The notes under the pieces were generated by a model. That model was not told where the DNA came from, did not search any database, and was given only the letters and a program-made list of their open reading frames with translations. Positions 3,289 to 38,098 of a DNA stretch of 64,000 nt are shown in pieces (position 1 is the first letter of the stretch; every line of letters begins with the position of its first letter). This DNA is from Actinoplanes derwentensis. Its GTDB lineage: Bacteria; Actinomycetota; Actinomycetes; Mycobacteriales; Micromonosporaceae. The translations under genes were made by a program, and so were the position numbers. The stretch is from NCBI RefSeq assembly GCF_900104725.1, contig NZ_LT629758.1:2046001-2110000 (forward strand), given 5' to 3'.

Positions 3289-3323
3289 CCGTCCTCGCCC
3301 TTTTCATCACCTCCGTTCCTGCA

Positions 3324-3357: not shown

Positions 3358-3368
3358 GAGGAGACCTT

Positions 3369-17386: not shown

Positions 17387-17395
17387 GGAAAGATC

Positions 17396-20409: not shown

Positions 20410-21576
20410 GTGTCCACTGCTCCTCAGGTTCTCGTCGTCGGGGCCGGCATCGTCGGTGCTGCGATCGCCCGGGTGCTGGCCCGCGCCGGTTGCGGCGTCG
20501 TCGTGGTCGATCGCGGCGCGACGGCGGGCGGCACCTCGGCGAGCGGGGAGGGCAACATCCTCGTCTCCGACAAGGGTCCCGGCGCCGAGTTGCGGCTCAC
20601 CCAGCGGTCGCTGACCGCGTGGGACCGGGTGCGCGAAGAGCTGCGTGACGAGCTGCCGGCCGGGTTCCCTGATCTGGAGCTGGACCACAAGGGCGGCCTG
20701 GTCGTGGCCACCACCGGCACCGGCGCGACGGCGCTGCTGGAGTTCGCCGGGACCCAGCGTGGTGCCGGGGTGACCGCCGAGGTCGTCGACGACGTCCGGG
20801 CGCACGACCTCGAACCCGATTTGACCCGTGACCTCACCGCGGCGGTCTTCTACCCGCAGGACGCCCAGATCCAGCCGGTGATCGCCACCGAGGCCCTGCT
20901 CGCCGCGGCCCGCCGGCATGGCGCCGAGGTCCGCCAGCAGGTCGAGGTCACCGGCGGCATCGTGACCGGCGGTCGGCTGACCGGCGTGCGGACCACCGGC
21001 GGACCACTGCACGCCGACCTGGTGATCGTGGCGGCCGGTCCCTGGTCGGGCGCGGTCGCCGACCGGATCGGGGTGACGCTGCCGGTCCGCCCGCGCCGGG
21101 GCACCGTGCTGGTCACCGCACGGATGCCGCACCGGATCCACCGCAAGGTGTACGACGCCGACTATGTGGGCGCGGTCGGCTCGGGATCGGCCGACCTGCA
21201 GGTCTCCAGCGTGGTCGAGTCCACCGCGGCCGGCACCGTCTTGATCGGCTCGTCGCGCGAGCGCCGCGGGTTCGACGACCGGATCGAGGCGCGGGTGCTG
21301 TCCGTCCTGGCCGCCAAGGCCCTGCTGCTCTTCCCGTTCCTGGCCGACGCCCAGGTGATGCGGGCCTACGGCGGGTTCCGCCCGTTCGTGCCGGATCACC
21401 TGCCGATCATCGGGCCGGACCCGCGGCTGCCCGGACTGTGGCACGCCACCGGTCACGAGGGCGCCGGCATCGGCTTGAGCCTGGCCACCGCCGACCTGAT
21501 GGCGGACCTGATCTTCGAGAGAGTCACCGAGAACGAGTTCCGGCTCGACCGGCCCGCTCTGGAGGGAGAGCTGTGA
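20410..21576 (+). CDS. D-hydroxyproline dehydrogenase beta-like FAD subunit (DAO family)
   Basis: A 388-residue DAO-superfamily flavoprotein: N-terminal dinucleotide fold VLVVGAGIVGAAIARVLARA, then VDRGATAGGTSASGEGN, and a C-terminal ATGHEGAGIGLSLAT motif. With the two following genes it forms the heteromeric amine dehydrogenase found in octopine/nopaline oxidases and in hydroxyproline pathways. The enzyme oxidises cis-4-hydroxy-D-proline to 1-pyrroline-4-hydroxy-2-carboxylate. GTG 20410 has no ribosome site, suggesting a leaderless mRNA. The stop overlaps the next gene (GTGA). The downstream deaminase and epimerase make hydroxyproline the natural substrate. Confidence 0.85.
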   Translation: MSTAPQVLVVGAGIVGAAIARVLARAGCGVVVVDRGATAGGTSASGEGNILVSDKGPGAELRLTQRSLTAWDRVREELRDELPAGFPDLELDHKGGLVVATTGTGATALLEFAGTQRGAGVTAEVVDDVRAHDLEPDLTRDLTAAVFYPQDAQIQPVIATEALLAAARRHGAEVRQQVEVTGGIVTGGRLTGVRTTGGPLHADLVIVAAGPWSGAVADRIGVTLPVRPRRGTVLVTARMPHRIHRKVYDADYVGAVGSGSADLQVSSVVESTAAGTVLIGSSRERRGFDDRIEARVLSVLAAKALLLFPFLADAQVMRAYGGFRPFVPDHLPIIGPDPRLPGLWHATGHEGAGIGLSLATADLMADLIFERVTENEFRLDRPALEGEL

Positions 21577-21827
21577 ACATCCGAGTTCAGGTGGCCGGCG
21601 AGCAGGTCGAGGCCGAACAGGGCCAGACCGTCGCCGGAGTGCTGATGTCCGGCGGCCGGATCGCCTGGCGCACCAGCCGCAGCGGGAAGCCGCGCGGGGT
21701 GTTCTGTGGCATCGGCGTCTGCTTCGACTGCCTGGTGGTGGTCAACGACCTGCGGGACGTTCGCGCCTGCCAGCGCCGGGTGGCCGACGGCGACCGCATC
21801 GAGTTCCAGGAGGACGACCATGCCTGA
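21573..21827 (+). CDS. Small [2Fe-2S] subunit of the D-hydroxyproline dehydrogenase
   Basis: An 84-residue ferredoxin-like protein with the cysteine set CGIGVCFDC plus a later Cys in DVRACQR, typical for the plant-type [2Fe-2S] gamma subunit of three-component amine dehydrogenases (HcnA-like). It would shuttle electrons from the flavin subunits. Start GTG 21573 overlaps the upstream stop; its own end overlaps the next ATG by 8 bp. Stoichiometric co-translation of all three subunits is therefore likely. Confidence 0.87.
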   Translation: MNIRVQVAGEQVEAEQGQTVAGVLMSGGRIAWRTSRSGKPRGVFCGIGVCFDCLVVVNDLRDVRACQRRVADGDRIEFQEDDHA

Positions 21828-23229
21828 GACGGTCGTCGTGATCGGTGGTGGCCCGGCCGGGATGGCCGCGACGCTCGCCGCGCGCCGCCGGGGCGCCCGG
21901 GTCGTCCTGATCGAGGCGGGCGACGACGTCGGCGGACAGTACTGGCGGCACCTGCCGGACTCCCGGGCCACCGCCGACGAGCACACGCTGCACCACGGCT
22001 GGGAGAAGTTCCGGACCATGCGGTCGGCAGTGCGCGACGATCCCGGCGTGGAGCTGATCCTGAACGGTCACGTCTGGTCGGTGGACCGGCGGGACGGACA
22101 GCCGCCGCTGGTGCACGTGATGATCGGTGCGGCCGACGGGCAGCGCCGGGTGGCAAGAACGTTCGTTCCGTCAGCTCTGGTCATCGCCACGGGGGCGCAT
22201 GAACGGACGCTGCCGTTTCCGGGCTGGGACCTGCCCGGTGTCTTCACCGCGGGCGCGGCCCAGGCCCTGGCCAAGGGCGAGCGGGTCACGGTCGGCAAGA
22301 ACGTGCTGGTGGCGGGCGCGGGCCCGTTCCTGCTACCGGTCGTCTCCAGCCTGGTCCGGGTCGGCGCGCGGGTCGCCGGGGTGGTCGAGGCGGCCGGATG
22401 GGCGCAGATCAGCCAGGGTTGGGGCACCCGTGGGTGGCGACTGGCGCAAGCGAACGCCAAAGCGGCCGAGCTGGTCGGATATGTCGCCGACCTGGCCAAG
22501 CATCGGATTCCTTACCGGGTGGCGAGTGCCGTGATCGCCGCGCACGGCACCGACCGCGTCGAGGAAGTCACCGTGGCCAGGCTGAACCCGGACTGGTCCC
22601 CGATCCCCGGCACCGAGACGAGGATCGTCACCGACGCGCTCTGCGTCAGTCACGGCTTCGTCCCCCGCACCGAACTGGCGATCTCCGCTGGCTGCGCGCT
22701 CGCGGGCGACATGGTCGAGACTGATCGGAATCAACAGACCAGCGTCCCCGGTGTGTTCAGCGCGGGTGAACTCACCGGCATCGGCGGCGTCGACCTGGCC
22801 CTGGCCGAAGGGGAGATCGCCGGGGCCGCGGCCGCCGGGAGACAGCCCCCACCGGCGGCGGTCCGGAGACGAGCCGTCTTCCGGGAGTTCGCCGGGCGGC
22901 TGGAGGCCGCCCATGGCATCCGTCCCGGCTGGCAGGCCTGGGTGGACGACACCACAGTGGTCTGCCGTTGCGAGGACGTCACCGCCGGAGAGCTCCGCGA
23001 CACCGCCCGGATGACCGGGTCCCGCGGACTGCGCTCCCTCAAACTCACCACCCGCGCGGGCCTGGGCATCTGCCAGGGCCGCACCTGTGGACGGTCCGCC
23101 GAGGAGATTCTCGAGCAGGCCGTCCCGGGACCGGACGGCCTGCTCGACGCCGGCCGGACCGCTAACCGCCCCCTCGCGGTTCCCCTCAGACTGGGGGAAC
23201 TCGCCATCACCGGAGAGGACGCCGGATGA
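21820..23229 (+). CDS. D-hydroxyproline dehydrogenase alpha-like NAD/FAD subunit
   Basis: A 469-residue pyridine-nucleotide-disulfide-type oxidoreductase (HcnB / octopine-oxidase A-like). It has an N-terminal FAD fold (VVVIGGGPAGMAATLAARRR), a second dinucleotide fold near 165-200 (VLVAGAGPFLLPV) and a C-terminal BFD-like iron-sulfur domain with four cysteines in CRCEDVT and GICQGRTCG. AGGAGG lies 7 bp upstream of ATG 21820. It completes the three-subunit dehydrogenase with the DAO and ferredoxin-like subunits. The stop overlaps the deaminase start (ATGA). Confidence 0.86.
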   Translation: MPETVVVIGGGPAGMAATLAARRRGARVVLIEAGDDVGGQYWRHLPDSRATADEHTLHHGWEKFRTMRSAVRDDPGVELILNGHVWSVDRRDGQPPLVHVMIGAADGQRRVARTFVPSALVIATGAHERTLPFPGWDLPGVFTAGAAQALAKGERVTVGKNVLVAGAGPFLLPVVSSLVRVGARVAGVVEAAGWAQISQGWGTRGWRLAQANAKAAELVGYVADLAKHRIPYRVASAVIAAHGTDRVEEVTVARLNPDWSPIPGTETRIVTDALCVSHGFVPRTELAISAGCALAGDMVETDRNQQTSVPGVFSAGELTGIGGVDLALAEGEIAGAAAAGRQPPPAAVRRRAVFREFAGRLEAAHGIRPGWQAWVDDTTVVCRCEDVTAGELRDTARMTGSRGLRSLKLTTRAGLGICQGRTCGRSAEEILEQAVPGPDGLLDAGRTANRPLAVPLRLGELAITGEDAG

Positions 23230-24155
23230 GCCCCGAGCCCACCGATCTTCGCGGAGTCATCGTCGCCACCGCGCTGCCCTACAAGGAGAACCCGTCCGCG
23301 CCGGCCGGTCTCGAGGTCGACTACGACAAGTTCGCCGAGCACTGCGACTGGCTGATCAGCAACGGCTGCCGCGGTGTCGGCCCGAACGGCTCGCTGGGCG
23401 AGTACTCGTCGCTGACCGACGCGGAGCGCCGCAAGGTCATCCAGGTGGCCGTGGAGACGGTCGGTGATCGCGGTGTCGTGGTCGCCGGTGTGCACGGTCC
23501 GGGCTGGCACCAGGCCAAGCACTGGGCCGAGCTGGCCGCCGAGGACGGCGCGCACGGTCTGCTGTCGCTGCCGCCGACCATGTACCGGGCCAACGACTCG
23601 CAGGTCATCGAGCACTACGCCAAGCTCAGCGAGGTCGGCCTGCCGATCATGATCTACAACAACCCGATCGACACCAAGGTCGACCTGCGTCCCGACCTGG
23701 TCGCCGAGATCGCCAAGCTGCCGAACATCTCCGCGATCAAGGAGTTCAGCGGCGACGTCCGCCGGCTCTTCGAGATCAAGGAACTCTGCGACATCGACGT
23801 GGTCGCGGGCGCCGACGACGTGCTGTTCGAGCTGATGGCCGACGGTGCGGTCGGCTGGTTCGCCGGCTTCCCGAACGTCTTCCCGGCTGAGTCGGTGGAG
23901 ATCTACGAGCACATGCTGGCCGGCCGGTTCCTGGAGGCCCGCGAGCTGTACAAGCACCTCGTAGCGGTGTTCCGCTGGGACTCCCGGGTCGAGTTCGTAC
24001 AGGCCATCAAGCTCAGCATGGACCTCGTCGGCCGGTACGGCGGCCCGTGCCGCCCGCCGCGCGGCCCGCTGATCGCCGACCACCACGCCCAGGTCACCGC
24101 GGACACCGAACGGGCGGTCGCGGCACTGGAGAAGTACCGAGCGGTGGCGGCCTGA
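23226..24155 (+). CDS. 1-pyrroline-4-hydroxy-2-carboxylate deaminase-like (DapA family)
   Basis: A 309-residue TIM-barrel of the dihydrodipicolinate synthase/N-acetylneuraminate lyase family, with the Schiff-base lysine at Lys172 (SAIKEFSGD) and the partner Tyr144 (MIYNNP). In hydroxyproline operons this family member deaminates 1-pyrroline-4-hydroxy-2-carboxylate to alpha-ketoglutarate semialdehyde. Lysine-biosynthetic DapA is less likely, because the gene lies between a D-hydroxyproline dehydrogenase and an epimerase, with ATGA overlap upstream and a 1-bp gap downstream. Confidence 0.87.
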   Translation: MSPEPTDLRGVIVATALPYKENPSAPAGLEVDYDKFAEHCDWLISNGCRGVGPNGSLGEYSSLTDAERRKVIQVAVETVGDRGVVVAGVHGPGWHQAKHWAELAAEDGAHGLLSLPPTMYRANDSQVIEHYAKLSEVGLPIMIYNNPIDTKVDLRPDLVAEIAKLPNISAIKEFSGDVRRLFEIKELCDIDVVAGADDVLFELMADGAVGWFAGFPNVFPAESVEIYEHMLAGRFLEARELYKHLVAVFRWDSRVEFVQAIKLSMDLVGRYGGPCRPPRGPLIADHHAQVTADTERAVAALEKYRAVAA

Positions 24156-24156
24156 C

Positions 24157-25158
24157 ATGCGGGCGGCGCGGCTGTTCTCCGCCGTCGACTCGCACACCGA
24201 GGGCATGCCGACCCGGGTCGTGACCGGCGGTTTCGGCGTCATCCCCGGTGCGACCATGAACGAGAAGCGGTTGCACTTCATCGAGCACCTGGACCATCTG
24301 CGCCGCCTGCTCGTCACCGAACCCCGCGGGCACGCGGCGATGAGCGGGGCGATCCTGCAACCGCCGACCCGCCCGGACGCCGACTTCGGCGTGCTCTACA
24401 TCGAGGTGTCCGGGCTGCTGCCGATGTGCGGGCACGGCACCATCGGGGTGGCCACCGTGCTGGTGGAGACCGGGATGGTCGAGGTGGTCGAGCCGGTCAC
24501 CACGATCCGCCTGGACACCCCGGCCGGTCTGGTGGTCGCCCGGGTCGCGGTCAGCGACGGGCACGCTGACAGCGTCACCCTGGAGAACGTCCCGTCGTAC
24601 TGCGAGCGCCTCGACGTCACGGTCGAGGTGCCCGGCTACGGCACGGTTCCGTACAGCCTGGCGTTCGGCGGCAACTTCTACGCGATGGTCGAGCTGGACG
24701 CGCTCGGCCTGCCGTTCGACCGGGCGCACAAGGACGAGATCCTCAAGGCCGGTCTGGCGATCATGGACGCGATCAACACGACCGCGCCGCCGAAACACCC
24801 GACCATCGACGGGGTGGACCAGTGTCACCACGTCGAGTTCCTCGCGCCCGGTTCCGACGCCGTCCTGTCCCGGCACGCGATGGCCATCCACCCGGGCTGG
24901 TTCGACCGTTCGCCGTGCGGCACCGGCACCTCGGCCCGGATGGCCGAGCTGCACGCCCGCGGTGAGCTGCCGATCGGCGCGGACTTCGTCAACGAGTCCT
25001 TCATCGGCAGCCGGTTCACCGGCCGTCTGGTGGGGCAGACCACGGTGGGCGACATCCCGGCGGTGCTGCCCACCATCACCGGCCGGGCATGGGTGACCGG
25101 GATCGGGCAGTACATGCTGGACCCGACCGACCCGTACCCGGCAGGTTTCGAGTTCTAG
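24157..25158 (+). CDS. 4-hydroxyproline 2-epimerase
   Basis: A 333-residue proline-racemase-family enzyme with both catalytic cysteines: Cys91 in MCGHGTIG and Cys254 in SPCGTGTSA. Having two cysteines marks racemase/epimerase function; the Thr variant would mean a dehydratase. It converts trans-4-hydroxy-L-proline to cis-4-hydroxy-D-proline, the substrate of the adjacent dehydrogenase. Proline racemase is the alternative, but the pathway context favours hydroxyproline. ATG 24157 lies 1 bp after the deaminase stop. Confidence 0.9.
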   Translation: MRAARLFSAVDSHTEGMPTRVVTGGFGVIPGATMNEKRLHFIEHLDHLRRLLVTEPRGHAAMSGAILQPPTRPDADFGVLYIEVSGLLPMCGHGTIGVATVLVETGMVEVVEPVTTIRLDTPAGLVVARVAVSDGHADSVTLENVPSYCERLDVTVEVPGYGTVPYSLAFGGNFYAMVELDALGLPFDRAHKDEILKAGLAIMDAINTTAPPKHPTIDGVDQCHHVEFLAPGSDAVLSRHAMAIHPGWFDRSPCGTGTSARMAELHARGELPIGADFVNESFIGSRFTGRLVGQTTVGDIPAVLPTITGRAWVTGIGQYMLDPTDPYPAGFEF

Positions 25159-25169
25159 AAGGAGTGTTC

Positions 25170-26540
25170 ATGACGATCGCGGCCGCACACGCCGCCCGTG
25201 TCCCCCTGCGCCGGTCGACCCCGGAGCAGCGAGCGGACTGGCTGGAAGCGGTGGCCTCGGCCCTCGACGCCGCGGCCGAGGAGCTGATCGGCATCGCGGC
25301 GGGGGAGACCCACCTGCCGCTGCCGCGGCTGACCGGGGAGCTCAAACGCACCACGTTCCAGGCCCGGCTGTTCGCCCAAGGTCTGCGGTCCGGGGAGCTT
25401 CTTCCGGTACGGATGGACGAAGCGGACCCGGAGTGGGGCATGGGCCCGCGTCCCGACCTGCGCCGCACGGTCGTGCCGATCGGCCCGGTGCTGGTCTTCG
25501 CGGCGAGCAACTTCCCGTTCGCGTTCAGTGTGTTCGGTGGGGACACCGTCTCGGCGCTGGCCGCGGGTTGCCCGGTGGTGGTCAAGGCACATCCCGGACA
25601 TCCGCTGCTCTCCCGTCGTACGGCCGGGGTGGTTGTCGAATCTCTTGCCGAGGCCGGCGCCCCGGACGGCGCGTTCGCGCTGATCGAGGGGGTGGAGGCG
25701 TCACTGGAGGCGCTGCGGGACCCGCGGATCAAGGCGGTCGGGTTCACCGGCTCGACCAAGGGCGGCCGGGCGCTGTTCGACATCGCGGCGGCCCGTCCCG
25801 AGCCGATCCCGTTCTACGGTGAGCTGGGCAGCGTCAACCCGGTGGTGGTCACACCGGCCGCCTGGGCCGAGCGGGGCGCGGCGGTGGCCGAGGGCTGGGT
25901 CGGCTCGCTCACCCTGGGCGCCGGGCAGTTCTGCACCAACCCGGGCGTGGTGCTGGTCCCGGACCCGGACGGCTTCCTCAAGGCGGTGGACCTGCCGGTC
26001 CCCGGCCGGATGCTGACCACGGGCCTGGAGGAGGGTTTCGCCGCCGCGGTGGCCGAGGTGGGTGCCCACCAGGGGGTACGGGTGGCCGCCGAGAGCCCGG
26101 CCAACGACCAGGGGGTCCGGTCCAGCGTGCTGAACGTGGCCGCCGCCGACGTGATCGCCGATCCGGCGGTGCTGGACGTCGAGATGTTCGGCCCGGCCGG
26201 TCTGGTGGTCGGCTACACGTCTCAGGACGAGCTGCTCGAGGTGCTGCGACGTGTTCCCGGCCAACTCACCGGCACCATCCAGGGCCACAGCTCGGGAGAC
26301 GACGCGGTGGCCGTGGAGGTCGCCGACGTGCTCGCCGACACGGCCGGCCGGATCGTCTGGAACGACTGGCCGACCGGGGTGACGGTCTCCGGCGCCCAGC
26401 AGCACGGTGGCCCGTACCCGGCCAGCACGGCACCGGCGTCGACGTCGGTCGGCCTGGCGGCGATCAGCCGGTGGCAGCGGCCGGTCGCGTTCCAAGGGGC
26501 ACCGGATTCGGTACTGCCGCCGGAATTGCGGAACCGCTGA
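25170..26540 (+). CDS. Alpha-ketoglutarate semialdehyde dehydrogenase
   Basis: A 456-residue ALDH-superfamily protein of the KGSADH type: Asn114 in AASNFPFAFS, Glu218 in FYGELGSVNP, catalytic Cys255 in GAGQFCTNPG and the C-terminal NDWPTGVTVSGAQQHGGPYP. It oxidises 2,5-dioxopentanoate, the deaminase product, to 2-oxoglutarate, so the pathway ends in the TCA cycle. ATG 25170 is fixed by AGAAGGAG 5 bp upstream. It is the last enzyme gene of this operon, and the regulator begins 67 bp later. It looks about 30-50 residues shorter at the N-terminus than many KGSADH. Confidence 0.88.
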   Translation: MTIAAAHAARVPLRRSTPEQRADWLEAVASALDAAAEELIGIAAGETHLPLPRLTGELKRTTFQARLFAQGLRSGELLPVRMDEADPEWGMGPRPDLRRTVVPIGPVLVFAASNFPFAFSVFGGDTVSALAAGCPVVVKAHPGHPLLSRRTAGVVVESLAEAGAPDGAFALIEGVEASLEALRDPRIKAVGFTGSTKGGRALFDIAAARPEPIPFYGELGSVNPVVVTPAAWAERGAAVAEGWVGSLTLGAGQFCTNPGVVLVPDPDGFLKAVDLPVPGRMLTTGLEEGFAAAVAEVGAHQGVRVAAESPANDQGVRSSVLNVAAADVIADPAVLDVEMFGPAGLVVGYTSQDELLEVLRRVPGQLTGTIQGHSSGDDAVAVEVADVLADTAGRIVWNDWPTGVTVSGAQQHGGPYPASTAPASTSVGLAAISRWQRPVAFQGAPDSVLPPELRNR

Positions 26541-26577
26541 GTGCCGTACTCTGTGTTCGCTGAGCGAATCTGCGCAG

Positions 26578-26592
26578 TGTGACATTTTACAG
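26578..26592 (+). promoter_or_regulatory. Regulon motif copy 3, upstream of gntR
   Basis: TGTGACATTTTACAG lies 15 bp before GTG 26608, next to its GGAGGGG ribosome site. Same consensus as at 20294, 20393 and 27402; suggests autoregulation by the GntR protein. Confidence 0.55.
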
Positions 26593-26607
26593 ATGGAGGG
26601 GTAGCCG

Positions 26608-27276
26608 GTGAGTTCGTCGGTCATCGGGCCGGTCGATGTGGGCGTCAGCCTGCGGGGCACCGTCGAGGACGCGGTCTCGGCCGCGATCGTCTCCGGAGAG
26701 CTCGCGCCGGGCACCCTGGTGACCGCGCCGACGCTCGCCGCCCGGTTCGGCGTGTCCGCCACGCCGGTCCGGGAAGCGATGCTCAACCTGCAGAAACGCG
26801 GGTTCGTCGACGTGGTGCGCAACAAGGGTTTCCGGGTCACCGAGGTCAGTGAGCAGGACCTCTGGGAGATCGTGCGGATCCGGCAGCAACTGGAGAGCCC
26901 GCCGATGCGGGAGATCGCCCGGACCCTGCAGCCCGAGCAGGCCGCCGGGCTCCGGGTGAAGGCGCAGGACATCGTGGACGCCGCGGCGGCCGCCGACCTG
27001 TCCGGTTACCTGGCCGCCGACCTGGTCTTCCACCTGCGGCTGCTCGATCTGCACGGCAATCGGCGGCTGGTCGAGCTGGTCAAGGACCTGCGGCAGCAGA
27101 CCCGGATGGTGGGGCTGGCCGACATGATCGGGACGGCCGAACTGGCCCGGTCGGCAGCCGAGCACCACAGCTTGATCGACCTGCTCGAAGCACGGGACGG
27201 CCGGGGTGCCGAAACACTGATGAACGCGCACATCGGGCACGTGCTGGGCTGGTGGAGCGGGCGCGCAGAGGACTGA
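26608..27276 (+). CDS. GntR-family (FCD) regulator of hydroxyproline use
   Basis: A 222-residue regulator: winged helix at 10-80 (VTAPTLAARFGVSATPVREAMLNLQ) and an all-helical FCD ligand domain at about 88-215, with His and Asp residues positioned for metal and carboxylate ligand binding. It sits between the hydroxyproline pathway and the peptide importer operon. A shared 15-bp motif precedes both operons and this gene. FCD regulators often sense carboxylates, so hydroxyproline or a pathway acid may be the effector (inference). GTG 26608 follows GGAGGGG. Confidence 0.88.
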   Translation: MSSSVIGPVDVGVSLRGTVEDAVSAAIVSGELAPGTLVTAPTLAARFGVSATPVREAMLNLQKRGFVDVVRNKGFRVTEVSEQDLWEIVRIRQQLESPPMREIARTLQPEQAAGLRVKAQDIVDAAAAADLSGYLAADLVFHLRLLDLHGNRRLVELVKDLRQQTRMVGLADMIGTAELARSAAEHHSLIDLLEARDGRGAETLMNAHIGHVLGWWSGRAED

Positions 27277-27288
27277 AACCCCTGGTCA

Positions 27289-27321
27289 GAAGGTCGGTCA
27301 CCGTCACGGTGACCGGCCTTC
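27289..27321 (+). terminator. Terminator after gntR
   Basis: 15-bp stem with one G-T wobble (GAAGGTCGGTCACCG / CGGTGACCGGCCTTC) and a 3-nt loop, 12 bp past the regulator stop. It separates the regulator from the importer promoter. The rest of the 274-bp gap holds motif copy 4 and an AT-richer promoter stretch. Confidence 0.75.
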
Positions 27322-27401
27322 TCGCTGTTCGGGCACCGTACCGCCGCAAGAATTTGATCTCCAGTAGGTAAAAAGTCTCGCGGGACCTTTCACGAGCGAT
27401 G

Positions 27402-27416
27402 TGTGACATACTACTG
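27402..27416 (+). promoter_or_regulatory. Regulon motif copy 4, upstream of the peptide importer operon
   Basis: TGTGACATACTACTG, 134 bp before the solute-binding protein start. CATACT inside it resembles a -10 box. Confidence 0.5.
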
Positions 27417-27550
27417 TTCACTTCCAGTGACCGGGGTCGCAATGATCCGGCACTTCCGCCGGCTGGCGAACGCGCCGCCGCGGACGGTCCGACCCCGCAT
27501 GGTGCGCCCACGATCCGTCGTCTGCGCCCTCTGAGGAAGGCAGAACCCCC

Positions 27551-29245: not shown

Positions 29246-29252
29246 CCTGACC

Positions 29253-30206: not shown

Positions 30207-30207
30207 C

Positions 30208-31194
30208 ATGACCCGCTACCTCGTTCACCGGGTACTCGGGATGCTCTTCGTCCTGTTCATGGTGTGCCTGTTCACCTACATGGTCTTCTTCCTGCTGTCG
30301 CCGGACCCGGCGGTGCAGATCTGCGGCAAGACCTGCACCCCGGAACGGATCGACCAGATCCGCGCCAACCTAGGCCTGGACGATCCTTTCCTGGCACAGT
30401 TCCTGCACTTCCTGCAGGGCCTGTTCACCGGCCGTGACTACGGCGCGGTGCACTGCTCGGCGCCCTGCCTGGGCTACTCGTTCCAGAGTTCGCAGGTCGT
30501 CACCGACATGATCGTGCAGCGCCTGCCGGTGACGGCCGTGGTGGCCGTCGGCGCGGCGGTGCTCTGGCTGCTCGCCGGCGTGATCGGCGGTCTGATCAGC
30601 GCGGTCCGGGAGGGCCGCTTCGCCGACCGGTTCATCACCGCGCTGACCCTCGGCGGCATGTCGGTCCCGAACTACGTCCTCGCCCTGGCCCTGCAGTACG
30701 TCTTCGTCGTTCAGCTCCAGTGGCTGCCCTTCCCGCAGGCCGTCCCGTTCGCCGACGACCCGGCCCAGTGGTTCCTCAACTTCATCCTGCCGTGGACCGT
30801 CCTGGCCGTCGGGTACGCCTCCTCCTACACCCGGCTCACCCGGGCCAACGTGATCGACACCCTGAGCGAGAACTTCGTGCGCACCGCCCGGGCCAAGGGC
30901 CTGCGACCACACCTGGTGTGGCGGCGGCACGCGCTGCGGCCGGCGCTCACCCCGATCGTCACCATCGCCGGCATGGACTTCGCCGGCCTGCTCGGCGGCG
31001 CGCTGATCACCGAGACGGTCTTCGGCATCAACGGCGTCGGCAAACTTGCCGCCGACTCGATCACCAAGAACGACCAGCCGGTGATCATGGCGGTCACCCT
31101 GCTCGCCGCGTTCTTCGTCGTGGTCGGCAACATGGCGGTCGACCTCCTCTACTCCGCGATCGACCCACGGGTCCGGGCAGGAGCGACATCATGA
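30208..31194 (+). CDS. Peptide ABC transporter permease (DppB-like)
   Basis: A 328-residue permease of the DppB/OppB type: first helix at about 10-31, a long extracytoplasmic loop and the conserved RTARAKGLRPHLVWRRHALR EAA-type motif near residue 230. ATG 30208 follows GGAGGG. The stop overlaps the first ATPase gene by 4 bp. With the other permease it forms the membrane channel of the importer. Confidence 0.88.
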   Translation: MTRYLVHRVLGMLFVLFMVCLFTYMVFFLLSPDPAVQICGKTCTPERIDQIRANLGLDDPFLAQFLHFLQGLFTGRDYGAVHCSAPCLGYSFQSSQVVTDMIVQRLPVTAVVAVGAAVLWLLAGVIGGLISAVREGRFADRFITALTLGGMSVPNYVLALALQYVFVVQLQWLPFPQAVPFADDPAQWFLNFILPWTVLAVGYASSYTRLTRANVIDTLSENFVRTARAKGLRPHLVWRRHALRPALTPIVTIAGMDFAGLLGGALITETVFGINGVGKLAADSITKNDQPVIMAVTLLAAFFVVVGNMAVDLLYSAIDPRVRAGATS

Positions 31195-32003
31195 GCCTTC
31201 TGCGGGTGAACGGCCTGACCGTGAAGTTCGGCGACACGACAGTGGTCGACGGGCTCGGTTTCGAACTGCCGAAGGGCGGCTCGCTCGGCATCGTCGGCGA
31301 GTCCGGCTCCGGCAAGTCGATGACCAGCCTCGCCGTGATGGACCTGCTGCCCAAGGGCGCGCGGCGCACCGGCAGCATCGTCTTCGACGGCATCGAACTG
31401 CGGGGCCTGCCGGAACGCCGGATGCGGACGATCCGCGGCGACCGGATCGCGATGATCTTCCAGGACCCACTGTCGTCGCTGAACCCCTACTACACCGTCG
31501 GCACCCAGATCGCCGAGGCGTACCGGTCGCACCGCTCCGGCGTGAGCCGCCGCGCCGCCCGCCGGGTGGCGATCGAGGCGATGGAACGGGTGCACATCAA
31601 GGAGGCCGGGCGGCGCGTCGACGACTACCCGCACCAGTTCTCCGGCGGCATGCGGCAACGCGTGATGATCGCGATGGCGCTCAGCACCGAACCCGAGCTG
31701 ATCATCGCGGACGAGCCGACCACCGCCCTGGACGTCACCGTGCAGGCCCAGATCCTCGACCTGCTCGCCGAGGTCCGCCGGGACACCGGCGCCGCCCTCA
31801 TCATGATCACCCACGATCTGGCAGTGGTCAGCGAGGTCGCCGACACCGTCGTGGTGATGCGCTACGGCGACGTGGTCGAGACCGGCACCACCGAGCAGAT
31901 CTTCTCCGATCCCCGGCATCCCTACACTCAGGCGCTGCTGGACGCCGTCCCGCGCATCGACGACACGATCGGCGACCTGCGTACCCTCGGAGGACACCCA
32001 TGA
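31191..32003 (+). CDS. Peptide ABC transporter ATPase (DppD-like)
   Basis: A 270-residue ABC ATPase: Walker A GESGSGKS at about 37-44, Q-loop FQDPLSSLNP, signature FSGGMRQRV, Walker B LIIADEPT and switch His in ITHDLAVV. It ends in DPRHPYTQALLDAVP, the start of the oligopeptide C-terminal extension, but lacks the cysteine cluster of longer DppD proteins (about 320-330 residues). ATGA overlaps on both sides keep it in the operon. Confidence 0.88.
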   Translation: MSLLRVNGLTVKFGDTTVVDGLGFELPKGGSLGIVGESGSGKSMTSLAVMDLLPKGARRTGSIVFDGIELRGLPERRMRTIRGDRIAMIFQDPLSSLNPYYTVGTQIAEAYRSHRSGVSRRAARRVAIEAMERVHIKEAGRRVDDYPHQFSGGMRQRVMIAMALSTEPELIIADEPTTALDVTVQAQILDLLAEVRRDTGAALIMITHDLAVVSEVADTVVVMRYGDVVETGTTEQIFSDPRHPYTQALLDAVPRIDDTIGDLRTLGGHP

Positions 32004-32839
32004 CCGGCGAACTCCTGCTGAGCGTCCGCGACCTGGTCAAACAGTTCCCGGTGGCCGGCACGGCCGGGCTGTTCACACCCGCGAAGCTGTTCACCGCGGT
32101 CGACGGCGTGTCCTTCGACCTGCACGCCGGACAGACCTTGGCCCTGGTCGGCGAGTCCGGCTCCGGCAAGTCGACCACCGCCCGGCTGGCCGCCCGGCTC
32201 CTCGACGTCACCTCCGGCAGCATCCAGCTGGACGGCCAGGACGTCACCACCCGCAAAGGCAAAGACCTCGCCGGAGTACGCCGGACCGTGCAAGTGGTCT
32301 TCCAGGACCCGTTCTCGTCACTGAACCCCCGGCACACCGTCGAGCGCATCGTCACCGCTCCCCTGCTCTACCAGCAGCGGGACATCCCGGGCGGGTCCCG
32401 CGACTTCACCCGGTCACTACTGGACCGCGTCGGCCTCAACCCCGACTGGCTCGACCGTTACCCGGCCCAGTTCTCCGGCGGGCAGGCCCAGCGCATCGGC
32501 ATCGCCCGCGCCCTGGCTATCGGCCCCCGGGTGCTGGTCTGTGACGAGGCGGTCTCCGCCCTCGACGTGTCGGTCCAGGCACAGATCATCAACCTGCTGC
32601 GCGACCTGCAGGCCGAGGAGGGCTTCGGCTGCCTGTTCATCGCCCACGACCTGGCCGTGGTCCGGCAGATCGCCACCTCGGTCGCGGTCATGACCGCCGG
32701 TAAGATCGTCGAGGCGGGGGAGCGGGACGCGGTCTTCGGCGATCCGAAACACGAGTACACCCGCAGACTACTAGCCGCCGTCCCGCGGATCCGCCCTGAG
32801 TGGGAGGCCGCACGGCGGGCGAAAGCAGCAGCCCGATGA
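32000..32839 (+). CDS. Peptide ABC transporter ATPase (DppF-like)
   Basis: A 279-residue second ATPase of the importer: Walker A GESGSGKST near residue 50, FQDPFSSLNPRHTV, signature FSGGQAQRI, Walker B VLVCDEAVSALD and the switch region IAHDLAVV. The insertion before Walker A (FPVAGTAGLFTPAKLFTAV) is usual in DppF/OppF. Coupled by ATGA to the ATPase before and the hydrolase after. Confidence 0.88.
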   Translation: MTGELLLSVRDLVKQFPVAGTAGLFTPAKLFTAVDGVSFDLHAGQTLALVGESGSGKSTTARLAARLLDVTSGSIQLDGQDVTTRKGKDLAGVRRTVQVVFQDPFSSLNPRHTVERIVTAPLLYQQRDIPGGSRDFTRSLLDRVGLNPDWLDRYPAQFSGGQAQRIGIARALAIGPRVLVCDEAVSALDVSVQAQIINLLRDLQAEEGFGCLFIAHDLAVVRQIATSVAVMTAGKIVEAGERDAVFGDPKHEYTRRLLAAVPRIRPEWEAARRAKAAAR

Positions 32840-34122
32840 CCATCGAATACCCCATTCCCGGCGCATGGGTCCGGGAGTACACCGTGCCGGTCCCGCTGGA
32901 CTGGTCGGACGAGACAGCCGGGACCATCGAGGTCTTCGTCCGGGAACTGGCCGACCCGGACCGACGCCACGACGACCTGCCGCTGCTCACCTACCTGCAG
33001 GGCGGCCCCGGCGGCGCCAACCCGCGACCGCCCGCCGTGAACGGCTGGCTCGCCGAAGCCCTGCCCGACTACCGCGTGGTCCTGGTCGACCAGCGCGGCA
33101 CCGGGCGCAGCACCCCGATCGACGGCACGGTGATCGCCGAGTTCCCGACCGGGGCGGCGGCAGCGGAATACCTGCTCAAGTTCCGTGCCGACTCCATCGT
33201 GCGGGACCTCGAGCACGTCCGGCGTACGAGCTACGGGTCGAAGAAGTGGGCGACGCTGGCCCAGAGTTACGGCGGATGGCTCACCCTGACCTACCTTTCG
33301 GTCGCGCCGGAGGCACTGACCGCGTGTTACGTCTGCGGCGGCATCCCCGGCCTGCCCCCCGACCCCGACGAGGTCTACCGGCGCACCTTCACCCGAGCCG
33401 CCGACAAGACCGCCGACTTCTACCGCCGCTACCCGCAGGACGTGGACACCGTGTCGGCCATCGCCGACCGGCTCGCCGCCGGCGACGTGCTGCTGCCCGA
33501 CGGATCGCCGCTGTCGGTCCGGCGCTTCCAGACTCTCGGCGGTGACCTCGGCTTCGGCGGCGGTCACCTGCGCCTGCACTGGCTGGTCGCCGAGGCGTTC
33601 TCGCCCCGCGGGCACCTGACCGGCGGCTTCCTGGAGAGTATTCTGACGAAGACGTCGAACGAGGCCAACCCACTGTTCTGGACCCTGCAGGAGAGCATCT
33701 ACGGCGACGGCGTCAACGGCCCGTTCCGCTGGTCCGCGCAGCGCGAACGCGACCGTCGTCCGGAGTTCGGCACCGACCGCCGACCCCTGTTGTTCACCAC
33801 CGAGATGGCCTTCCCGTGGATGTTCCAGGAGGTCCGGGCCCTGCGGCCGTTCGCCGCCGCGATGGCCGAACTGGCCGAGATACGGACCTGGACATCGCTC
33901 TACGACACCGAACGGCTGGCCGACAACGAAGTCCCGCTGGCCGCGGTGGTCTACTTCGATGACGTGTTCGTTGACGAGGGACTGCAACTGACCACCCTCG
34001 CCCGCCTCGGCAACAGCCGGGCCTGGGTGACCAACGAGTTCGAACACGACGGCATCGGCAGCGGACGGGCCTTCACCCACCTGCGCGAGATGGTCCGCGA
34101 CCGAGGAGGAGAACGACAGTGA
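32836..34122 (+). CDS. Alpha/beta-hydrolase, prolyl aminopeptidase-like
   Basis: A 428-residue S33-family-like hydrolase. Visible features are the oxyanion segment LQGGPGG, the VDQRGTGRST motif characteristic of proline iminopeptidases and related tripeptidyl hydrolases, and the nucleophile elbow AQSYGGW. A C-terminal His lies in EFEHDGIGSGRAF. Such enzymes release an N-terminal proline (often hydroxyproline too) from peptides. No signal peptide is seen, so it acts on imported peptides in the cytoplasm. It is linked by 4-bp overlaps to the importer ATPase and to the next peptidase. Confidence 0.83.
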   Translation: MTIEYPIPGAWVREYTVPVPLDWSDETAGTIEVFVRELADPDRRHDDLPLLTYLQGGPGGANPRPPAVNGWLAEALPDYRVVLVDQRGTGRSTPIDGTVIAEFPTGAAAAEYLLKFRADSIVRDLEHVRRTSYGSKKWATLAQSYGGWLTLTYLSVAPEALTACYVCGGIPGLPPDPDEVYRRTFTRAADKTADFYRRYPQDVDTVSAIADRLAAGDVLLPDGSPLSVRRFQTLGGDLGFGGGHLRLHWLVAEAFSPRGHLTGGFLESILTKTSNEANPLFWTLQESIYGDGVNGPFRWSAQRERDRRPEFGTDRRPLLFTTEMAFPWMFQEVRALRPFAAAMAELAEIRTWTSLYDTERLADNEVPLAAVVYFDDVFVDEGLQLTTLARLGNSRAWVTNEFEHDGIGSGRAFTHLREMVRDRGGERQ

Positions 34123-35471
34123 CGCAGCCCCGCCCCGCCTGGGCCGGAACCAAGCCGCCCCGCCTGGCCGACGACAGCCCCGGATTCCTGGCCTCGATCG
34201 GTCAGGGCTGGGCGGCCCGGAACGTGCCCGCACCGGTGGACGCCGCAGCCGCGAAGGCCGCCGCCGACCACCGGGAACGGCTCAGCGCCGCACTGCCCGG
34301 CGAGACGATCGTGCTCGCGGCCGGGACGGCGAAGAACCGCAACGGCGACGCCGACTACGCGTTCCGGGCCGACAGCGACTTCGTCTGGGCCACGTCCTGC
34401 CAGGTCGAGGAGTCGATCCTGGTGATGACACCGCGGTCCGGCGGCCACGACGCGGTGCTCTACATGCCGCCGCCGGCCCGGCCCGGCGAACGGAACTTCT
34501 TCGCCAGCGCCGCGTACGGCGAACTGTGGGTGGGACCGTCGGCCGGACTCGACGACTGGTCGTCGGCGCTGGACCTGCCGGTGCGGGACCGGGAGGCGTA
34601 CGCGGAACCGTCCTCGTTCGTCACCGGCGGAACGGCCGCCTCCGGCCTGCGCATGATCAAGGACGACTGGGAGATCACCCAGATGCGGGCGGCGGTCGAC
34701 GCCACCGTGGCCGGGTTCGCCGCGGTCGCCGGCGAGGTGCCCCGCGCGATCCGCGACAACCTCGGCGAACGATGGCTGCAGGGCACCTTCGACCGGTACG
34801 CCCGCACCTTCGGCAACGGCCCCGGCTACAGCACCATCGTCGGCTCCGGACCACACGCGCCGATCCTGCACTGGGTGCGCTGCGACGGCCCGATCCTGCC
34901 CGGCGAGACGCTGCTGCTGGACATGGGCGTGGAAGCGCGGTCGCTCTACACCGCCGACGTCACCCGGACCATCCCGGTCGGCGGCGGATTCACCCCCGCA
35001 CAACGTCGGGTCCACGACCTGGTCGAGGCCTCCCACCGGGCGGGCATGGCCCAGGTGCGCCCCGGAGCGCAGTACTCGGACTTCCACTTCGCCTCGATGG
35101 AGGTCCTCGCCAAGGGCCTCGCCGACTGGGGACTGCTCGGGGTCTCGGTCGACGAGGCGCTCGCCCCGGCCGGGCAGCAGCACCGCCGCTACATCGTCTG
35201 CGGGATCGGCCACCACCTGGGACTCGACGTGCACGACTGCGGCGCCTCGGGGTACGAGGACTACCAGGGTGCCGCACTGCGCGAGGGCATGGTGCTGACC
35301 GTCGAGCCTGGGCTGTACTTCCACGCCCACGACGAGACCGTCCCGCCGGAGCTGCGCGGCATCGGGGTGCGGCTGGAGGACGACCTGCTGGTCACCGCGA
35401 ACGGCCATGAGGTGCTGTCCGGCGCACTGCCGATCGACGCGGCCGGCCTGGAGCAGTGGGCCGCACGATGA
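34119..35471 (+). CDS. M24-family Xaa-Pro aminopeptidase-like enzyme
   Basis: A 450-residue protein with an AMP_N-type N-terminal domain (about 40-170) and a pita-bread metallopeptidase domain (about 195-430). Metal ligands are visible: Asp in LLLDMGVEA, Asp in YTADVTRT, His in GIGHHLGLDVHD, Glu in LTVEPGLY and Glu in GVRLEDD. The family removes the residue N-terminal to proline (aminopeptidase P/prolidase). Together with the prolyl aminopeptidase-like gene it would fully dismantle peptides rich in proline or hydroxyproline. GTG 34119 overlaps the hydrolase stop; its stop overlaps the GH127 ATG. Confidence 0.88.
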   Translation: MTQPRPAWAGTKPPRLADDSPGFLASIGQGWAARNVPAPVDAAAAKAAADHRERLSAALPGETIVLAAGTAKNRNGDADYAFRADSDFVWATSCQVEESILVMTPRSGGHDAVLYMPPPARPGERNFFASAAYGELWVGPSAGLDDWSSALDLPVRDREAYAEPSSFVTGGTAASGLRMIKDDWEITQMRAAVDATVAGFAAVAGEVPRAIRDNLGERWLQGTFDRYARTFGNGPGYSTIVGSGPHAPILHWVRCDGPILPGETLLLDMGVEARSLYTADVTRTIPVGGGFTPAQRRVHDLVEASHRAGMAQVRPGAQYSDFHFASMEVLAKGLADWGLLGVSVDEALAPAGQQHRRYIVCGIGHHLGLDVHDCGASGYEDYQGAALREGMVLTVEPGLYFHAHDETVPPELRGIGVRLEDDLLVTANGHEVLSGALPIDAAGLEQWAAR

Positions 35472-38098
35472 CCTTCTTCACGCTGGGCGAGGTCGGCCTG
35501 CACGACGGTGTGCACGCCCGTGCCCAGGAGCAGATGCTGCACCTGGCCCGGGTGTACCCGGTGGACCGGGTGCTCGCGGTGTTCCGCGCCAACGCCGGTA
35601 TGGACACCCGGGACGCGCTGCCGCCGGGTAACTGGGAGGACTTCGGGCATCCCGAGGAACAGCCGTGGTCCGGGTCGGACTATCCGGGGGCGGGCGTGGC
35701 GCAGACCGCGTCGCTGCTGCGTGGCCACTATGCCGGGCACTTCCTGTCCATGCTGGCCATGGCCCACGCGTCCACCGGATCTTCGCTGTTCCGCGAGAAG
35801 TCCGATCATCTGGTGGCCGGGCTGGCGGAGGTCCAGGAAGCGCTGGCCGCCACCGGGCGGTTCAGTCATCCCGGCTTTCTGGCCGCGTACGGCGAATGGC
35901 AGTTCACCAGACTTGAGGACCTCGCGCCGTACGGGGAGATCTGGGCGCCCTGGTACACCTGCCACAAGATCATGGCCGGGTTGCTCGACGCCTATCAACA
36001 CACCGGCAACAAGCAGGCCCTCGATGTGGTGACCGCGATGGGTCACTGGGCGGCGCGCAGCATCCTCGCCGTCGACCGGGTCCAGCGGCAGCGGATGTGG
36101 TCGCTCTACATCGCCGGTGAATACGGCGGCATGAACGAGAGCCTGACCGTCCTGCACCGGATCACCGGCGAGCAGACGTTCCTGGACGCCGCCGCGGCCT
36201 TCGAGATGGACACGTGGCTGGCCGGGGCGGTTGCCGGGCACGACGTGCTCGACGGCATGCACGCCAACCAGCACCTGCCGATGCTCGTCGGGCACCTGGC
36301 CCAGTACGAGGTCACCGGCGACCGGCGCTATCTGGACGCGGTGCTGAACCTGTGGGACCAGATCGTCCCCGGCCGCACCTTCGCCCACGGCGGCACCGGC
36401 GAGGGCGAACTGTGGGGCCCGGCCGGGGCGGTGGCCCGTTTCGTCGGCCGCCGCAACGCCGAGTCGTGCGCCACGTACAACCTGCTGAAGATCGCCCGCG
36501 GGCTGTTCACCAACACCCGGGACGTGAAGTACGCCGACTACGCCGAACGCGCGTCGCTCAACCACATGGTGGGCTCCCGCGCCGACGTCGTCTCGGACAG
36601 CAGCCCCGAGGTCGTCTACATGTACCCGGTCGACCCGGGCGCGGTCCGCGAGTACGACAACGTCGGCACCTGCTGCGGCGGCACCGGCCTGGAGAGTCAC
36701 GTCAAACACCAGGAGTCGATCTGGTTCGCCGGCCCCGGCGAACTGTACGTCCTGCAGTACGTGCCGTCCCGCCTGAGCTGGGCGGACGTCGACGGCGAGG
36801 TGGTGCTGGACACCCGCTACCCGCGGGACGGCCAGATCACCCTGGAGATCGGCTTCACCGCGTCGATCGCACTGCACCTGCGGATCCCGCCGTGGGCGCG
36901 GGACGGAGCCGTGGTCCAGCTCAACGGATCGCCCCGGCGGATCACCGCCGACGACCGGGGGTTCGTGACGATCCAGCGCGAATTCCGGGCCGGTGACACC
37001 GTCACACTGGTCCTGCCGATGCCGCTGCGGCTCGTACCCACCCCGGACGATCCGGCACTGGTCAGCCTGGAACACGGTCCGACGGTGCTACTGGCCCGCG
37101 ACGACGCGACGACCACACTTACGGTGGCGCCGGCCGGTGCCCGGCTGCTCGACGGCAGCATCACCGGGTTCGAGACCGACGGCGACCTGGTCACGGTGCT
37201 CGGGCACACCTTCGAACCGGCCTGGTCCGGCGGCGACCACCGCTACCACGCCTACCTGCGCCTGGACGACGCGGACATCGTGTTCCACGGCAGCGACCCC
37301 GGGGTGCCCAACCGGCGCGACCAGGACGGCTGGTCGGTGATCGGCGCGCTCTGGGCCGACGGTGGCCATGCCACCATCGATGACTTCTTCACCGCGGTCC
37401 ACCACAACGTGGTGCGGGCGGCTCGGGGCGGGCTGCTCAGCCGTTCGGAAGCCGAGGCGGTGCTGATCGCCGCGTCGTCGAGCACGGTGGACGGCGTCTC
37501 CCGGAACGGCCTGGTGCGCACCGGCGATCATGGCGTGACGGTCCAGGGAGACCGGGTCGTCTGGGAGCTACCGGCCGACGCGGGTGCGGAATCCGCGGCT
37601 CCGGTGATCAGAATCGACGTGACGGGTTCGCGGGCGTCGTCGGGCTGGTACACCTCGCCGCCGACCTGCACGGTCACCGTGGTCTCGCCGGGCCCGGGCC
37701 TCACGTCCCTGGAGACCTCCCGCGACGGCATCGAATGGACACCGGCGGACCTGACTCTCGGTGACGGCCGGCACCGCCTTCGGGCCCGGGCCACCGACGT
37801 GTCCGGCCGCGTGGTGCACGTCGCCCGCGAGATCGACGTCGACACCGCCGCGCCGCGGGTGTCGGCGCGGGTCCGGTCGCTGGGCCGCAGTGTCGAGGTG
37901 ACCCTGGACGCGGCCGACGAGGTGTCCGGCGTGGACCGTGTCCAGTGGCGTACGGCGGAGACGTTCTGGGGTGTCTTCCAGGAGCCGTTCACCCGGGCGC
38001 TGCACGACCAGCCGCAGACCCTCGAGTTCACCGCCACCGACCGGGCCGGCAACACCACAGCGGTCCAGACCGTGACCCTGCCCGCTCTCACCGGGTGA
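35468..38098 (+). CDS. GH127 beta-L-arabinofuranosidase (DUF1680) with C-terminal Ig-like region
   Basis: An 876-residue glycoside hydrolase. The (alpha/alpha)6 catalytic part covers about 1-560. The zinc-thiolate site known from HypBA1 of Bifidobacterium longum is fully conserved: Glu332 and Cys334 in AESCATYN, Cys402 and Cys403 in GTCCGGTG; Glu312 or Glu314 is a likely acid/base. HypBA1 removes L-arabinose from beta-arabinofuranosides linked to hydroxyproline in plant extensins. A region at about 726-795 (GWYTSPPTCTVTV, RARATDVSG) resembles OmpL47/Ig-like modules usually seen in secreted enzymes, yet no signal peptide exists. ATG 35468 overlaps the peptidase stop, coupling it to the importer operon. 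Confidence 0.87.
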   Translation: MTFFTLGEVGLHDGVHARAQEQMLHLARVYPVDRVLAVFRANAGMDTRDALPPGNWEDFGHPEEQPWSGSDYPGAGVAQTASLLRGHYAGHFLSMLAMAHASTGSSLFREKSDHLVAGLAEVQEALAATGRFSHPGFLAAYGEWQFTRLEDLAPYGEIWAPWYTCHKIMAGLLDAYQHTGNKQALDVVTAMGHWAARSILAVDRVQRQRMWSLYIAGEYGGMNESLTVLHRITGEQTFLDAAAAFEMDTWLAGAVAGHDVLDGMHANQHLPMLVGHLAQYEVTGDRRYLDAVLNLWDQIVPGRTFAHGGTGEGELWGPAGAVARFVGRRNAESCATYNLLKIARGLFTNTRDVKYADYAERASLNHMVGSRADVVSDSSPEVVYMYPVDPGAVREYDNVGTCCGGTGLESHVKHQESIWFAGPGELYVLQYVPSRLSWADVDGEVVLDTRYPRDGQITLEIGFTASIALHLRIPPWARDGAVVQLNGSPRRITADDRGFVTIQREFRAGDTVTLVLPMPLRLVPTPDDPALVSLEHGPTVLLARDDATTTLTVAPAGARLLDGSITGFETDGDLVTVLGHTFEPAWSGGDHRYHAYLRLDDADIVFHGSDPGVPNRRDQDGWSVIGALWADGGHATIDDFFTAVHHNVVRAARGGLLSRSEAEAVLIAASSSTVDGVSRNGLVRTGDHGVTVQGDRVVWELPADAGAESAAPVIRIDVTGSRASSGWYTSPPTCTVTVVSPGPGLTSLETSRDGIEWTPADLTLGDGRHRLRARATDVSGRVVHVAREIDVDTAAPRVSARVRSLGRSVEVTLDAADEVSGVDRVQWRTAETFWGVFQEPFTRALHDQPQTLEFTATDRAGNTTAVQTVTLPALTG

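Follow-up and report, generated by a model that had tools for sequence, protein, structure and literature searches.

Extensins are abundant, tough proteins of the plant cell wall. The bacterial routes to them that were found described consist of arabinose removal, mostly extracellular, and the protein part is not addressed in the available parts of those papers. The components considered here are known from separate systems: hydroxyproline (Hyp) loci under HypR control, a Colwellia cluster for collagen, and the breakdown of arabinosides of hydroxyproline-rich glycoproteins (HRGPs) by Bifidobacterium and Xanthomonas. In Streptomyces coelicolor, HypR represses a Hyp operon, Hyp induces the operon, and deletion of the epimerase abolishes growth on Hyp (PMC6608401). 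Bifidobacterium longum degrades the Hyp-linked beta-arabinofuranose (Araf) of HRGPs with HypBA1, HypBA2 and HypAA, using an importer and a cytoplasmic beta-L-arabinofuranosidase (PMC7263609, PMC5928203). XeHypBA1 of Xanthomonas euvesicatoria, placed in glycoside hydrolase (GH) family 146, frees arabinose from Araf-beta-Hyp of HRGPs (PMC6085000, PMC10850190). The collagen cluster of Colwellia BB5 combines uptake, proline-directed peptidases and Hyp catabolism (PMC7883544). For Latescibacteria, extensin use was predicted from gene content, with no coupled locus described in the part of the paper at hand (PMC4454575). Here, a locus of fifteen genes at positions 20410-38098 of a 64,000-nucleotide stretch of Actinoplanes derwentensis DNA (contig NZ_LT629758.1, positions 2,046,001 to 2,110,000; the window) was compared with these systems.

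The locus is probably a HypR-type regulon through which arabinosylated Hyp-rich peptides from glycoproteins of the plant cell wall, e.g. extensins, are used inside the cell (probability roughly 0.68). It lies in a genome of 10.65 Mb on a single contig. All genes (designated A, A2 and B to N, each on the + strand) were intact open reading frames (ORFs), and domains were assigned by Pfam and NCBIfam scans. They encode a Hyp pathway and a regulator of the GntR-FCD type, an ATP-binding cassette (ABC) importer of peptide type, two peptidases (one S33-like, the other an M24 aminopeptidase P) and an enzyme resembling beta-L-arabinofuranosidases. An original prediction from the letters of the window had named the Hyp pathway, the regulator, the importer, two peptidase-like enzymes and a GH127 enzyme (N), and all of these genes were recovered. 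In the proposed mechanism, the lipoprotein G and the OppBCDF-type importer (G-K) would take up short peptides or glycopeptides. N would strip beta-L-Araf from Hyp in the cytoplasm, and M and L would cut at Pro or Hyp, releasing Hyp. Trans-4-Hyp would be epimerised by D, its D-form oxidised by A, A2 and B, the product deaminated by C and finally oxidised by E to 2-oxoglutarate. F would repress three promoters through a box, GTGACATNNTA, and repression would lift when Hyp is present. We infer the importer cargo, the GH substrate, the peptidase specificity, the binding of F to the box and the plant source.

Conservation was assessed by scanning genome contigs for relatives of the GH N. This yielded 34 GH loci, 24 with a close GH (at least 47% identity; 23 genomes, L015 and L038 being two contigs of one genome) and 10 with a distant GH. 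The close loci came from Actinoplanes, Symbioplanes, Catenuloplanes, Kineosporia, Actinosynnema, Glycomyces and Microbacterium. Conservation of the neighbourhood had been set beforehand as one test of the original prediction, and G-H-I-J-K-L-M-N was complete and in order in all 20 named loci that had a close GH and were visible in full, from five actinomycete families. Loci L011, L015, L017 and L038 were interrupted by contig ends; their visible portions agreed or were uninformative. Those Glycomyces and Microbacterium loci that have Hyp genes carry them on the opposite side of the GH, so that content is kept and order changes. The family sample held 300 genomes including that of the window, hence 299 relatives, and the GH clade occurred in 20 of them. 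S33 at 57% identity or more was found in 20/20 GH-clade relatives vs 12/279 others, and a relative of 4-hydroxyproline epimerase (4HypE) in 20/20 vs 78/279 (Fisher 5e-11, a value that ignores kinship). A distance of 20 kb or less between GH and 4HypE was seen in 14 of the 20.

Beyond the family, the GH was present in 2/246 genomes of a class sample (the window's own and G536), in 3/249 genomes of the family of G536 (G536, G563 and G725) and in 0/60 genomes of genus g106 of that family, which is probably not Microbacterium. G563 (Diaminobutyricimonas) had the full cluster, and a PutA-type gene upstream of it. G725 (Pseudoclavibacter) had the importer-S33-M24-GH portion, with Hyp genes elsewhere, and the cluster was absent around the GH of G536 (45% identity). 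Additional GH relatives turned up in a protein search (best 120 of 1137), e.g. in Promicromonospora, Microbacterium and Leifsonia. Neither S33 nor M24 was present at the 10 distant GH loci (33-36% identity); L029 had an importer at 31-54% identity. L034 (Plantactinospora mayteni) carried A, A2, B and C of the Hyp genes at approximately 6.8 kb from its distant GH (36%), which has an RR-type signal, and S33, M24 and a matching importer were absent. This locus is a partial counter-example to the GH meeting Hyp genes in this clade only. Chance clustering was rejected on the basis of the conservation in relatives and the family-sample counts; together with the box evidence, this conservation places the cluster above chance.

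In A. couchii (G226; L016/L072), the Hyp operon at the locus is mostly lost, with a fragment of B, C, F and three boxes remaining. It has kept the genes for importer, peptidases and GH, and a second, divergent and boxless Hyp cluster (L138) is located elsewhere. L128 (G098) is a decayed cluster with pieces of K, M24 and the C-terminal region of the GH beside a full-length S33 match and a Hyp operon. In the Microbacterium loci L017 and L019, a gene of the ornithine-cyclodeaminase family is inserted between D and F, and an extra GH127-type gene with a GH127 C-terminal domain lies downstream.

Operator-like boxes were found at three sites on the + strand: TGTGACATAGTACAG (20393..20407) with its end 2 bp ahead of the GTG start of A, TGTGACATTTTACAG (26578..26592) before F and TGTGACATACTACTG (27402..27416) before the importer unit. 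In the 10.65 Mb genome, TGTGACATNNTAC had three matches, all at the locus (20393, 26578 and 27402), and the reversed control had none. When one mismatch was allowed, the longer pattern TGTGACATNNTACNG matched 0.08 times on average in shuffles of the window. The footprint of S. coelicolor HypR is TACAATGTCAC (PMC6608401). Its reverse complement, GTGACATTGTA, agrees with the box at all fixed positions of GTGACATNNTA, and by this measure the three boxes are putative HypR-type operators. The regulator F (26608..27276; PF00392, PF07729) is a GntR-FCD protein of the FadR subfamily and a candidate HypR-like regulator.

True gaps were found between E and F (67 bp) and between F and G (274 bp), each containing a putative operator. 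Within the Hyp genes, A/A2 and B/C overlap by 4 bp and A2/B by 8 bp, and C/D and D/E are separated by 1 and 11 bp. In the importer-to-GH run, G/H is 7 bp and H/I 1 bp apart, and I/J, J/K, K/L, L/M and M/N overlap by 4 bp. The original claim that almost all of the last seven genes have 1-4 bp junctions is accurate for H to N. Its single transcription unit gave way to a different picture, as the locus looks like three box-marked promoter units (A-E, F and G-N) of one regulon.

In relatives, boxes were located before A, F or the solute-binding protein (SBP), in many before the SBP. The pattern TGTGAYATNNTAC had 51 matches in 20 relatives, of which 33 were at the cluster and 8 at a separate Hyp locus. 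In seven genomes (G226, G157, G169, G145, G166, G108 and G725) no Hyp genes adjoined the cluster, and in five of these (G169, G145, G166, G108 and G725) the separate Hyp locus carried the box. The shared operator-like box links the sugar/peptide unit to the Hyp unit, also when the two are apart (5/7 cases). In G725, a box with one mismatch was found 156 bp upstream of the SBP. In genus g4 (probably Micromonospora), TGTGCCATTGCACTG stood ahead of S33 in 5/5 S33-Hyp loci, and in one of them C was preceded by TGCAATGTCAC, which complements the HypR site exactly. With up to 3 mismatches, no box was found near the starts tested in L141 and two Microbacterium loci, and the 3-mismatch matches of G563 were all inside genes. 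The recurrent Glycomyces box TGTGACATCATAC (8/20 genomes) was considered as a regulon member. In the three cases read (L103, L113 and L115), it belonged to another palindrome, TGACATCAT..ATGATGTCA with one variable half, beside an ABC-ATPase gene, and was set aside for this reason. The remaining off-locus matches of TGTGAYATNNTAC were G006:C46 and G108:C47:75127.

The location of L, M and N was estimated from the highest 15-residue Kyte-Doolittle mean at the N-terminus, and RR-type signals were read by eye. No hydrophobic N-terminus was found in the listed 22 L, 24 M and 25 N proteins (maximum 1.22; N of L015 without true start), and 21 SBPs used as positive control scored 1.86 to 2.31. Judged from these N-termini, a cytoplasmic location of L, M and N is supported. 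Together with the conserved neighbourhood and the shared box, this location supports the original prediction in outline, glycopeptides being the putative cargo of the importer, Hyp-linked arabinose the putative target of N and extensin the putative source. Outside the clade, 15 of 17 GH relatives examined, including the G536 protein, had an RR-type (Tat-like) signal. Of the GH127/GH146-type paralogues in the own genome, L001, L002 and L006 had RR-type signals; the distant L003 and L005, the other two of the 17, had no export signal, so cytoplasmic location alone is no marker of the cluster GH. In a GH tree of 31 rows (midpoint root; L003 and L005 left out), the 17 cluster GH rows formed one group (100/99) with the G536 protein as sister (100/100). 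RR-type rows surrounded both, and the protein closest to N was from A. rectilineatus. The simplest reading is that an exported GH shifted to the cytoplasm on joining the importer. The missing export signal fits a substrate that enters through the same importer.

N (35468..38098; Beta-AFase-like_GH127_cat 7.5e-76 plus middle domain, with a C-terminal Ig-like region and no signal peptide seen) belongs to the Pfam GH127 superfamily. Its sequence profile was nearest to CAZy GH146, with BT0349 preferred. The earlier GH127 label therefore holds for the Pfam superfamily and not for HypBA1-type enzymes: a single-sequence search returned 6 PDB sequences without HypBA1, and the profile put HypBA1 far below GH146. 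E314, E332, C334, C402 and C403 were invariant in 23/23 alignment rows and lined up with their counterparts in BT0349 and Bll3HypBA1. In GH146 these positions provide the acid/base Glu, the zinc ligands and the nucleophile Cys (PMC10850190). N is thus GH146-type by sequence and fold with catalytic residues kept, and predicted to be a beta-L-arabinofuranosidase. GH146 includes enzymes cutting Araf-beta-Hyp, e.g. XeHypBA1 (PMC6085000; GH146 placement PMC10850190). Elsewhere in the own genome, a tight group of GH127/GH146-type matches (L003, L006 and L007) was seen at G000:C1:3370808-3377813, besides L001, L002 and L005.

The importer unit begins with the family-5 solute-binding lipoprotein G (27551..29245; PF00496 (SBP_bac_5) 2e-78), which has a lipoprotein-type start and whose best PDB relative is an oligopeptide-binding protein (2wok, 1.3e-85). 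It is followed by the OppC-type permease H (29253..30206; PF00528, PF12911), the OppB-type permease I (30208..31194, scanned as longer ORF 30166-31194; PF19300, PF00528), the OppD/DppD-type ATPase J (31191..32003; PF00005 2.3e-27, PF08352) and the OppF/DppF-type ATPase K (32000..32839; PF00005, PF08352). L (32836..34122) is an S33-like alpha/beta hydrolase and candidate (hydroxy)prolyl aminopeptidase. It has the S33/PIP-type fold with GGPG and the nucleophile Ser present, and scored far below the cut-off of NCBIfam pro_imino_pep_1. In favour of the preferred reading, S33 adjoined Hyp genes without the GH in 8/10 fetched loci. M (34119..35471; PF00557 2.4e-46, PF05195) is an aminopeptidase P with M24 and AMP_N domains (PDB 4pv4, 3.8e-53). 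No signal peptide was seen in L or M.

By family, the Hyp pathway is complete at the locus (epimerase, D-Hyp dehydrogenase, deaminase and alpha-ketoglutarate semialdehyde dehydrogenase), with NCBIfam equivalog cut-offs reached by none of the proteins. A (20410..21576; PF01266 (DAO) 2e-65) is the FAD subunit of a candidate three-subunit D-Hyp dehydrogenase. A2 (21573..21827; 84 aa; PF13510 Fer2_4 1.7e-20) is the small [2Fe-2S] subunit and overlaps A and B, and B (21820..23229; PF07992 (Pyr_redox_2) 3.7e-27, PF04324 4.9e-9) is the pyridine-nucleotide/FAD and BFD [2Fe-2S] subunit. C (23226..24155; PF00701 2.5e-44) is a candidate deaminase of the dihydrodipicolinate synthase (DHDPS) family. D (24157..25158; PF05544 1.6e-126) belongs to the 4-hydroxyproline epimerase/proline racemase family, below the equivalog cut-offs; its cysteines C91 and C254 presumably lie within both active-site motifs of the epimerase. 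E (25170..26540, scanned as longer ORF 25089-26540; PF00171 6.5e-36) is an aldehyde dehydrogenase and candidate alpha-ketoglutarate semialdehyde dehydrogenase, with 1eyy (1.1e-105) and 3v4c (about 1e-105) as best PDB relatives.

Other explanations of the same genes were weighed. The cargo may consist of small Hyp-O-arabinosides (single amino acid glycosides) or beta-arabino-oligosaccharides, which N would split inside the cell and whose Hyp would be burned, with the peptidases serving other Hyp/Pro peptides. Such a route has a precedent in B. longum, where beta-Ara2 from HRGPs is reportedly imported by an ABC importer and split by a cytoplasmic beta-arabinofuranosidase (PMC7263609), and the GH146 enzyme XeHypBA1 is active on Araf-beta-Hyp (PMC6085000). 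The importer, however, has SBP_bac_5/OppBCDF components and its best PDB relative is an oligopeptide-binding protein, and both peptidases are within the importer unit in 20/20 fully visible loci, which makes this explanation unlikely. Alternatively, N may act on beta1,3- or other beta-L-arabinofuranosides of arabinan or arabinogalactan protein (AGP) fragments, in which case the Hyp link would reflect AGP glycopeptides and not extensin-type Hyp-arabinosides. N is related to the GH146 enzyme Bll3HypBA1, which is beta1,3-specific with <0.1% relative activity on Hyp-arabinosides (PMC10850190). The profile of N prefers BT0349, however, and no GH43 or GH30 domain was found in the scanned flanking genes of relatives (10 + 4, a small part of the flanks); AGP fragments are considered a very improbable substrate.

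The core may also serve general scavenging of Hyp/Pro peptides, e.g. collagen peptides, with the GH acquired for some loosely connected plant arabinoside and sharing no substrate with the peptidases. In genus g4 the Hyp genes were accompanied by S33 and mostly M24, and in G067 and G135 by S33 alone, each time without importer and GH. In addition, a putative collagenase belongs to the HypR regulon of S. coelicolor (PMC6608401). Against a separate substrate of the GH, its close relatives always occurred beside importer, S33 and M24 wherever that part of the locus could be seen, and the box was common to cluster and Hyp genes in most lineages. The GH clade moreover lacks the export signal of its nearest relatives. 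General scavenging is accordingly regarded as quite unlikely, and use of arabinosylated Hyp-rich peptides was preferred.

Several observations weigh against the preferred use of arabinosylated peptides. Family-5 SBPs bind peptides, yet some have other ligands. The solved structure nearest to L is that of a plant protein and not of an assayed Hyp peptidase. Among the fifteen genes there is no secreted protease or first-step arabinobiosidase, and L-arabinose genes are absent from the cluster (two AraA are encoded elsewhere in the genome). Most of the 20 GH-clade family relatives are closely related Glycomyces, and in 6/20 no 4HypE was found within 20 kb of the GH; gene order varies. Concerning the box, 10/51 matches of TGTGAYATNNTAC were elsewhere, 8 of these at the recurrent Glycomyces site, and G069 (1/20 relatives) had no match at all. 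The separate Hyp locus was boxless in G226 and G157, and no recognisable box was found at the Hyp genes of Microbacterium, G563 and G157. The boxed separate loci of four Glycomyces contained C, D, an F-like gene and, in 3/4, E, with no relatives of A, A2 or B. In vitro, Hyp and proline left the DNA binding of S. coelicolor HypR unchanged (PMC6608401), and some GH146 members act on beta1,3-arabinofuranosides of arabinan/AGP (PMC10850190).

Accessory alpha-galactosidase genes were found beside some clusters. In G725, a GH36 alpha-galactosidase is located between M24 and the GH (L155, Melibiase 1.6e-116). In 5/12 named Glycomyces loci (L020, L023, L024, L026 and L039; view limited to 1-2 kb past the SBP), GH36 is divergent from the SBP. 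A signal peptide was absent in the Glycomyces GH36 N-termini read, and a box was located near or between the GH36 and SBP starts. The five Glycomyces include four that seem closely related, GH36 genes are common in general, and GH36 is absent from the window's cluster. Ser-Hyp repeats of extensin bear Ser-alpha-galactose plus Hyp-arabinose (PMC8012813; PMC4908140, PMC5371791), and a cytoplasmic-looking GH36 in some relatives would match this Ser-alpha-galactose. The occurrence of GH36 beside the clusters is no more than suggestive. That whole glycopeptides are imported and wholly dismantled in the cytoplasm by a dedicated actinomycete extensin-glycopeptide system, with GH36 removing Ser-linked alpha-galactose, is put forward tentatively.

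Directly upstream of A, the window encodes an NCS1-type permease, an agmatinase-family protein, a SnoaL-like protein and an aldehyde dehydrogenase resembling succinate-semialdehyde dehydrogenase (SSADH) (15851-20060). Agmatinase-like and SSADH-like genes were seen upstream of the A. couchii locus (L072) too. At 1774-8390, a row of genes for an amino acid permease, a DUF1989 protein and a urea-carboxylase-like biotin enzyme presumably resembles guanidine or urea carboxylase loci. Rfam gave no match in the whole window at gathering threshold, riboswitch families included.

The original prediction knew of no described system that couples sugar, peptide and Hyp steps. In agreement, searches of an open-licence library, which lacks most subscription papers, found no description of a locus combining a peptide importer and peptidases with a cytoplasmic enzyme of GH146 type and the catabolism of Hyp. 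The available parts of PMC4113996 and PMC8129789 contain nothing on glycosidases. If the preferred reading is true, the locus would explain how soil and plant-associated actinomycetes gain carbon and nitrogen from extensin, and would offer a cytoplasmic enzyme for Hyp-arabinosides and one clear regulon.

Compared with the known systems, as far as the available parts of the papers describe them, the locus resembles SCO6289-6293 of S. coelicolor in its putative three-subunit D-Hyp dehydrogenase, DHDPS-type deaminase and epimerase (333 aa in S. coelicolor), and in the GntR-FCD repressor with operator core GTGACAT (PMC6608401). The S. coelicolor locus differs in being tied to a putative secreted collagenase and in adjoining the transporter gene SCO6295, and no S33, M24, glycosidase or aminopeptidase is described for it (PMC6608401). 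In B. longum, an extracellular GH121 first frees beta-Ara2, a sugar importer takes up the disaccharide, the regulator is of LacI type, and no peptide or Hyp step is described (PMC7263609, PMC5928203). This layout was not found among the fifteen genes, which include no GH121 or sugar-type importer (the rest of the genome was unsearched for GH121). In X. euvesicatoria, with XeHypBA1, XeHypBA2 and XeHypAA, XeHypBA1 is made with a signal peptide, and no transporter, gene cluster or epimerase is mentioned (PMC6085000). The Colwellia BB5 cluster is gammaproteobacterial and relies on an M9 collagenase and on uptake by major facilitator superfamily and TonB systems, with no Hyp-glycan glycosidase described (PMC7883544). 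Bll3HypBA1 has a signal peptide and membrane anchor, neither of which is found at the start of N, and N differs further in its C-terminal Ig-like region. In sequence profile, fold and active-site residues, N is like BT0349, Bll3HypBA1 and Bll4HypBA1 (PMC10850190).

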